Assembly (NCBI GenBank): GCA_016210545.1 | Contig: JACQTY010000261.1 | Location: forward strand, 1 to 33,517 | DNA: 33,517 nt | Direction: 5' to 3' | From: Chloroflexota bacterium | GTDB taxonomy: Bacteria > Chloroflexota > Dehalococcoidia > JACVQG01 | Part shown: piece by piece, positions 30,957 to 33,517 of the stretch | Position numbering within the stretch: the first letter of the stretch is position 1 | How the letters are laid out: each line of letters begins with the position of its first letter | The notes under the pieces: model-generated | Told to the model about the DNA's origin: nothing | Databases searched by the model: none | What the model saw: the letters and a program-made list of their open reading frames with translations, nothing else | Translations under genes and position numbers: made by a program

Positions 30957-31490
30957 GTGAAGTCCCTACTGAAGGTTTCCAAAGGTTTTACTCTTATTGA
31001 ACTTATGGTAGTGATGACGATCATGTCGGTGCTGGCGGCAATAGTTGTGCCGCAGGTGACGGGGACGGTGACGAGCGGCAAGTCAACTGTCAAGAAGAAC
31101 GACCTTCAGGCCGTACAGTCGGCGGTTGATAGGTATAATGCTGACCATTCCAGCAGCTACTATCCGGTAGATACAAACGGGGCTGCTGCGCCCAGCAGCA
31201 CGGCGTACGAGGTGAAGCTGTCTGTCGGGGGCGCCGATGTTTATCTGAAGGATATCGTGTGGGACGCGGCTCTAAGCGCTACGAGTGGAGCGAAGAAGTT
31301 AGTGCCGGATTACCTGAAGAGCAAGCCCTCGCGAAACGGAGACGTGATTGAAGACACAACGACGTCGATTATCATAGAGGGGACGACGTATACGGTGGCT
31401 TTCAGCGCTGGAGTCACGTCGATGGGGATTTGGGCGGTGGATGGTAACGGCAAGGTGTGGCTGCTTTTGGACGATGGAACGCCGTACTAG
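30957..31490 (+). CDS. Type IV prepilin-like protein (copy 1)
   Basis: GTG start with SD AGGAGGGGAA; MKSLLKVSKGFTLIELMVVMTIMSVLAAIVVPQVTGTV is a class III/IV prepilin signal. Confidence 0.9.
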   Translation: MKSLLKVSKGFTLIELMVVMTIMSVLAAIVVPQVTGTVTSGKSTVKKNDLQAVQSAVDRYNADHSSSYYPVDTNGAAAPSSTAYEVKLSVGGADVYLKDIVWDAALSATSGAKKLVPDYLKSKPSRNGDVIEDTTTSIIIEGTTYTVAFSAGVTSMGIWAVDGNGKVWLLLDDGTPY

Positions 31491-31506
31491 CTAGTGGTCT
31501 GATGGG

Positions 31507-31543
31507 TCCCATGTGTAGTAGGGCATGGTGGAAGGACATGGGA
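31507..31543 (+). promoter_or_regulatory. Inverted repeat immediately upstream of the second prepilin start
   Basis: TCCCATGT ... ACATGGGA (8 bp perfect, 21-nt loop) ending 2 nt before the ATG at 31546. Confidence 0.4.
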
Positions 31544-31545
31544 TC

Positions 31546-32040
31546 ATGAGGAAGATTCGGCAGCAACGCGAACGAGGCTTTACCCTAATTGAGATATTGA
31601 TTGCGCTGGCTTTGCTGGCCATCATCGGGGCGGTGGTGATCCCCAACATAACGGGGTATATCGGACGGGGTGAGGAGCAGGCATACAAGGCCGAACAGAA
31701 ACTTATCCAGGGGGCGGTGGATGGCTACTACGCCGACCCGGCGACCCGCATCAACGGGAAGAAGACCTATCCGCTCAAGGGCACCACTGCGGAAAAGCAG
31801 AGCGGGGGGCTCCCGGTGGGTGATGGGACAGCGTGGACCAGCGGCAGCGGGTACTTCATCGACTTTGATACGCTGGTAACCGGCAAGTACATCAACTCGG
31901 TGCCGGCCTCAGCCTCGGCGGATAACAAGGCCCTGGCGACGGGTTCCTACACGTGGTATGTGAAGGCCGATGGGACGGTGGAGTCGAAGTATGCCACGGA
32001 TAGAGCGACGGTGGGGTTTGTGACGGGGGTCTATCCCTGA
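31546..32040 (+). CDS. Type IV prepilin-like protein (divergent)
   Basis: MRKIRQQRERGFTLIEILIALALLAIIGAVVIPNITGYIGRGEEQAYKAEQKLIQGAVDGYYAD. Confidence 0.88.
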   Translation: MRKIRQQRERGFTLIEILIALALLAIIGAVVIPNITGYIGRGEEQAYKAEQKLIQGAVDGYYADPATRINGKKTYPLKGTTAEKQSGGLPVGDGTAWTSGSGYFIDFDTLVTGKYINSVPASASADNKALATGSYTWYVKADGTVESKYATDRATVGFVTGVYP

Positions 32041-32069
32041 CCTGGCGCAGTCGCTGAAGAAGGTATCAA

Positions 32070-32102
32070 GAGGCCCGTTCCGGATTAGCCGGGGCGGGCC
32101 TC
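32070..32102 (+). terminator. Candidate terminator hairpin after the second prepilin
   Basis: GAGGCCCG...CGGGCCTC inverted repeat with inner CCG/CGG pairing. Confidence 0.55.
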
Positions 32103-32992
32103 CTTCGTTGTAGGGCCGCAGCATGGTCACTCGTTCCAAGAAAATGCCTCTGTCACCCGTACTTAGACAGATAGCGAAAAGCTTCCCCCATTTGTCATTC
32201 CGGCCAACGAGCCGGAATCCAGGAGACGTGAGCACCGCGGGGCCACCGATGCGTCGGGGCTTTGGCTGGAATTAGTCATCAGTATTTGCAATACCCACCA
32301 CGAAGGATGAAAAGGGCAATCACTGTCATTATTGAAAGTCCCTTACGTCGGGGTGGCCGACCCAATGAGGAGCGATGAACCGATTGGGATATAGACGGTT
32401 CATTGAAAGCGAAACGAAGGAATCTCGTTCAATTGAGGATTCCCTGAGATTGCTTCGGCGTCCCGACCCGTCGGGACTCCTCGCATTGGCAAGAGAGTGT
32501 CTATTTTCGTGTAGTGACAACCGCATAGCCCCTGGAACAGGGCTGTGCAGTCGGCTCCTGACAGGACCAGAGGCCCTTTGCCCGAAGAGCGCCCTCAGTG
32601 TCACGCTGAGAGGCTGTGAAGAAATTGGTTCGCCCTTATCTGAACGGGAGTCGAGTCTGAATCTGGGAAATCAATAAATTCAGAAACTCTCAGTTCCGAT
32701 GTATCGGGACGAAGGGTCTGGGGCTGTGGGCGAGACAAATACGAAATGACAGGCCTCCCCTTCCCGAGGAGTGGGGACTCGCTTCCCCCTCACGGAGCCT
32801 GGCATGAGTACCGCTTCGGGGACACTCAAGGCGACGTCGGTAGTTCATTTGCCATCCTTTCATCAGAGTGTCGTGTAGTCAGGGTTGGCGTGGAGGGGTA
32901 CGAACCGGGCAGTGGAGGAGTTCGACTGCGGGCGCAGTTTGAGAGTTGGAGGTTGATAGTAGTGCGACGGTAAACGACCGTGCGAGAGGGTA

Positions 32993-33021
32993 TTGACAAA
33001 CGTTAACAGGTGTGTTATATT
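32993..33021 (+). promoter_or_regulatory. Promoter of pilin copy 2
   Basis: TTGACA-N17-TATATT. Confidence 0.7.
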
Positions 33022-33152
33022 GGTTGCTGTAATGACAAAGACGGAAGATTACTGACACATTACATGACTTGGCGAGTAGGGGGTGAGACGGAAGGAAGAG
33101 GCGACTTGGGAGCATGGAAGGACCTGGTTAAACAAAGAAGAGGAGGGGGATC

Positions 33153-33517
33153 GTGAAATCCCTGTTCAGGCATTCAAGAGGTTTTACTCTTATCGAGCTT
33201 ATGGTAGTTATGACCATCCTGTCGATCCTGGCGGCGATAGTTGTGCCGCAGGTGACCGGGACGGTGACAAGCGGGAAGTCGACTGTAAAGAAGAACGACC
33301 TTCAGGCGGTACAGGGGGGGGTTGATAGGTATAATGCTGACCATTCGAGTGGATACTATCCGGTAGATACAAACGGGGCGGCTGGGGCCAGCAGCACGGC
33401 GTACGAGGTGAAGCTGTCTGTCGGGGGCGCCGATGTTTATCTGAAGGATATCGTGTGGGACGCGGCTCTAAGCGCTACGAGTGGAGCGAAGAAGTTAGTG
33501 CCGGATTACCTGAAGAG
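33153..33517 (+). CDS. Type IV prepilin-like protein (copy 2), truncated by the window end
   Basis: GTG start with SD GAGGAGGGGG; MKSLFRHSRGFTLIELMVVMTILSILAAIVVPQVTGTVTSGKSTVKKNDLQAVQGGVDRYNADHSSGYYPVDTNGAAGASSTAYEVKLSVGG...; frame open to the window end. Missing from the supplied ORF track. Confidence 0.88.
   Translation, partial: MKSLFRHSRGFTLIELMVVMTILSILAAIVVPQVTGTVTSGKSTVKKNDLQAVQGGVDRYNADHSSGYYPVDTNGAAGASSTAYEVKLSVGGADVYLKDIVWDAALSATSGAKKLVPDYLK

Follow-up and report, generated by a model that had tools for sequence, protein, structure and literature searches.

Diverged tandem pilin genes share an exact 130-nt tract at a contig edge, best explained by recent local homogenisation

The window analysed here (positions 1-33,517) is an entire contig of 33,517 bp (G000:C226) from a draft genome (MAG) of 263 contigs, 3.34 Mb and an estimated completeness of 93.8%. 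Its right end holds a type IV pilin locus that runs from an acyl-CoA dehydrogenase through pilin A1, pilin B1 and an intergenic stretch of dispersed repeats to a second A pilin, A2, and the contig edge (Table 1). A1 and A2 are direct repeats about 2.2 kb apart (2,196 nt) with the different pilin B1 between them, and two terminator-like hairpins bracket A1 and B1. The stretch that separates B1 from A2 is a patchwork of short pieces, each 75-95% identical to other sites in the genome. At its left end, the contig opens with a roughly 180-nt dispersed repeat. Positions 1-400 of the window have 47 matches genome-wide (~71-99% identical), many of them at contig edges, and this repeat probably accounts for much of the fragmentation of the MAG.

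Table 1. Coordinates of the features of the pilin locus within the window.
Feature	Position	Strand	Basis and remarks
Acyl-CoA dehydrogenase, flanking the pilin locus on the left	29260..30480	+	Pfam Acyl-CoA_dh_N/M/1; same left neighbour in G001
Terminator-like hairpin after acyl-CoA dehydrogenase	30502-30535		hairpin scan
A1 leader	30786..30902	+	70% identity to A2 leader; third related copy in genome
Promoter-like TTGACA-17-TATGGT in A1 leader	30791-30819	+	promoter scan
Pilin A1, complete, GTG start, 177 aa, prepilin signal GFTLIE	30957..31490	+	ORF; Pfam N_methyl 3.4e-9; TIGR02532 above cut-off
A1 diverged 5' part	30957..31191	+	33 differences from A2 across 235 nt
130-nt identical tract, A1 copy	31192..31321	+	A1/A2 alignment
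Pilin B1, separate pilin family, 164 aa	31546..32040	+	ATG at 31546 (alternative start 31525 gives 171 aa); Pfam N_methyl 1.1e-8
Intergenic stretch, pieces repeated elsewhere in genome	32041..32980	.	blastn against sampled contigs
Terminator-like hairpin 3' of B1	32070..32102	+	hairpin scan
A2 leader	32988..33104	+	comparison with A1 leader
Promoter-like TTGACA-17-TATATT in A2 leader	32993-33021	+	promoter scan
Pilin A2, truncated by contig edge after 121 codons (5' two thirds)	33153..33517	+	ORF open at 3' end; N_methyl 5.5e-11
130-nt identical tract, A2 copy, up to contig edge	33388..33517	+	A1/A2 alignment

A1, B1 and A2 each carry the hallmarks of type IV prepilins, with an N-terminal cleavage and methylation motif (GFTLIE in A1), a hydrophobic helix, and matches to PF07963 and TIGR02532 above cut-off. 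The genome also encodes an assembly ATPase and an inner-membrane platform protein (T2SSE/MshEN and T2SSF), both on contig C25 and unlinked to the A/B locus. This region of C25 (L071, 488-9034), which represents type IV pilus or type II secretion machinery, comprises the MshEN-domain ATPase, the T2SSF platform protein, one pilin, and two similar open frames of 274-288 aa.

A1 and A2 are each preceded by their own promoter-like TTGACA-17-TATNNT, a similar leader, and a ribosome-binding-site-like stretch. A third copy of the leader, 74% identical and with the TTGACA included, lies on the minus strand of contig C152 (L123, 7736-7853), where the reading frame that follows it is a different one and begins with a signal-peptide-like sequence. 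From its recurrence in the sequence, the pilin leader may be a shared regulatory module.

The locus is conserved in a genome of the same genus (G001), where an acyl-CoA dehydrogenase is followed by one A pilin, then three B pilins, then a ComM-like gene. B1 is related to the B pilins of that genome. In the present genome, ComM lies close to an edge of contig C149, at a distance of about 155 nt. Given this synteny and the position of ComM, the edges of C226 (33517) and C149 (5266) appear to face the same unassembled gap, which probably contains the 3' remainder of A2 together with the sequence beyond it. A scan of genome contigs matched a single distant pilin and turned up no second assembly of the same species.

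Alignment of A1 with A2 over 365 nt revealed 33 mismatches and no gaps, with every mismatch confined to gene nucleotides 6-235. The last falls at 31191 in A1 and 33387 in A2, after which the copies are identical for 130 nt up to the contig edge. The first-pass annotation had reported the same coordinates and counts, which the alignment confirms, and had described the change from diverged to identical as sharp. That change goes well beyond chance: when 33 differences were permuted over 365 nt, a run of at least 130 arose in ~1e-5 of trials, and synonymous differences fell from 19 at 59.3 sites in codons 1-79 to 0 at 30.3 sites in codons 80-121 (Fisher p = 2e-4 for the drop from 19/59 to 0/30; ~8e-6 under a uniform rate), with the proviso that these probabilities ignore the discovery of the tract at a contig edge, a place in which long exact repeats accumulate. 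Read along the alignment, the switch is slightly graded, with identity at ~70-73% in the leader, 87-92% in the 5' coding part, 95% just before the tract, and 100% within it. In the diverged 5' part, dN is 0.083 and dS is ~0.42. On its 5' side the tract is thus bounded by diverged homologous sequence, and on its 3' side by the contig edge.

The tract had been assigned to the C-terminal, probably exposed half of the protein. It instead occupies the middle, residues 79-121 of 177, with residues 122-177 of A2 lying in the unseen portion of the gene. A single-sequence structure model of A1 had low confidence (mean pLDDT 39) and could not locate the tract within the fold, so that its surface exposure is at most a conjecture.

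The polarity of the pair had also been called opposite to the usual one, and for the visible part this is borne out by the relatives. Tandem pilin pairs in G013, G041, G028 and G031 are 93-98% identical just past the cleavage site and 40-60% identical later, whereas A1 and A2 rise from 87-92% to 100% over the part that can be compared, the last third of A2 being missing. The tandem pair of G022 is more even, at 68-90% throughout. We regard the A1/A2 polarity as a mild oddity that fits a recent mid-gene exchange and requires no special mechanism.

To place the contig edge in context, contig-end overlaps and direct repeats were measured in about one quarter of the genome's contigs (0.93 Mb, four masked). 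Exact overlaps between the ends of sampled contigs never exceeded 141 nt; among the best overlaps, six were 141 nt and four were 119 nt. These lengths suggest iterative k-mer assembly. They fit the final two word lengths in the default series of a MEGAHIT-type program, and MEGAHIT was probably the assembler. A 130-nt exact repeat would split the assembly graph at a word length of 119 and not at 141; because its length falls between the two, the repeat itself probably stopped the assembly. Within single contigs of the 0.93 Mb sample, the longest exact direct repeats were the A1/A2 tract at 130 nt and one of 115 nt on contig C17, both at contig edges, and exact direct repeats inside contigs reached at most 87 nt. 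Long exact repeats therefore gather at contig edges, and the edge position of the tract is neither suspicious alone nor independent evidence.

Two contig edges elsewhere in the genome also carry direct duplications. On C17 (L063, 1-1100), a direct repeat with 558-nt spacing is exact for 115 nt, then shows a few differences, and then diverges strongly. C42 (L088) has a tandem duplication of a short open frame that contains a signal-peptide-like sequence; the spacing is 193 nt, and 79 nt are exact.

We consider recent homogenisation of the tandem paralogs to be the best explanation of the A1/A2 tract, and probably the correct one. An A pilin gene and its leader would have been tandemly duplicated in a chromosomal type IV pilin locus long enough ago for dS to reach ~0.4. 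Homologous exchange between the direct repeats 2.2 kb apart would then recently have rendered at least 130 nt of the gene middle identical, by RecA-type gene conversion or by unequal crossing-over. Being longer than the second-largest word length of the assembler, the resulting exact repeat would have stopped the contig inside it and left the rest of A2 unrecovered in C226. We infer that the exchange was biological and recent. Supporting it, the leaders and 5' coding parts of A1 and A2 are clearly paralogous, and other tandem direct repeats inside sampled contigs hold shorter exact runs between diverged flanks, for example 73 nt with flanks of 69% and 85%, and 56 nt with flanks of 80% and 88%. 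Against it, the tract touches the contig edge, so that its 3' boundary and the remainder of A2 are unseen; moreover, no other exact direct repeat in the sampled 0.93 Mb is as long, and the runner-up (115 nt) is likewise located at an edge.

Like cases of concerted evolution or gene conversion among bacterial tandem paralogs, the locus has direct repeats and an exact tract beside diverged flanks, with shorter cases in the same genome; it differs in that one boundary of the tract is visible and the other is the contig edge. A Legionella pneumophila locus carries tandem major-pilin paralogs of the PilA1/PilA2 type (PMC13170364) and shares with ours two related pilins at one locus, but here B1 stands between the copies, and a promoter-like leader precedes A1 and A2 individually. 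A literature search for conversion between tandem pilins outside Neisseria returned nothing specific.

The tract could also be an artefact of assembly. The stretch that the true A2 has in common with A1 would then be shorter, and a false hybrid would have arisen when the assembler, or its local-assembly step, extended the A2 end along A1 sequence or along the reads of another strain. Assemblers are well documented to make local errors, and MAGs to hold chimeras (PMC7111523). The tract stops exactly at the contig edge, and short exact repeats prevail at the contig ends of this genome, their modal lengths being 141 and 119, between which 130 falls. However, 130 nt matches neither modal length, and the diverged A2 sequence runs for hundreds of bases upstream with its own leader, so that A2 itself is no phantom copy. 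In addition, the final 142-nt word of the contig holds three A2-specific bases together with the whole tract; since this word spans the join, an assembly at k = 141 should have required it, and some read or local contig must presumably have carried it. On balance, we judge an artefact possible but doubtful, and the main rival to homogenisation.

Unequal crossing-over could have produced the same hybrid by amplification, in which case the A2 head with its A1 tail would mark where one 2.2-kb repeat unit meets the next, and B1 and the intergenic stretch would be identical as well. Such a hybrid is what amplification of direct repeats spaced by 2,196 nt would be expected to yield, and relatives do carry several tandem pilins, as with the one A and three B pilins of G001. 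Yet identity longer than 141 nt at good depth should break the contig in the A1 tract, near 31332, where it is unbroken, and a contig starting with a second B1 was not found. We therefore consider amplification unlikely. It seems to us more unlikely still that two active, promoter-bearing pilin genes swap segments of their globular regions as the N-terminal parts drift apart, contrary to what is usual.

The first-pass annotation had likened the locus to pilin variation systems, and this part of its proposal is not supported. In the Neisseria system, up to 19 silent promoterless copies donate to one expressed gene (PMC4534519). What pilE/pilS shares with the present locus is mosaic identity among pilin genes, of a kind that segmental gene conversion could produce. 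Switching in that system also requires a G4-forming sequence upstream. In the present locus, the identical tract lies mid-gene, both copies have promoter-like sequence and a leader, and the suggested scan for further silent cassettes found none in the recovered genome, which is an estimated 93.8% complete with a gap in the A/B locus. A protein search of that genome returned only A1, A2, B1 and the machinery-linked pilin on C25, and the DNA of the tract occurs just twice. Nor is a conserved N-terminal part joined to a variable C-terminal part, since the N-terminal part is 87-92% identical and the tract 100%, with the last third of A2 unseen. Programmed variation from silent donor cassettes of the pilE/pilS type is thus very improbable. 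Strong purifying selection on the gene middle in place of exchange is scarcely credible: although A1 and A2 are conserved at the protein level (in the 5' part, dN is 0.083 and dS 0.42), all ~30 synonymous sites of the tract would need to be frozen (p = 2e-4), so that protein constraint fails to explain the identity, and an Rfam search gave a single sub-threshold hit, outside the tract, and no family covering it.

Recent gene conversion or segmental recombination, as first proposed, stands as the best account of 0 differences at ~30 synonymous sites beside a dS of ~0.42. On this reading, the homogenisation of A1 and A2 is incidental, and not the work of a programmed variation system. The tract reveals no new mechanism, and short-read MAGs readily break or merge duplicated pilin arrays. 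If two active genes did swap segments, the surface composition of the pilus would be homogenised or reshuffled without silent cassettes. If the homogenisation is real, it would represent a clear case, from an uncultured lineage, in which tandem pilin genes have recently exchanged sequence.
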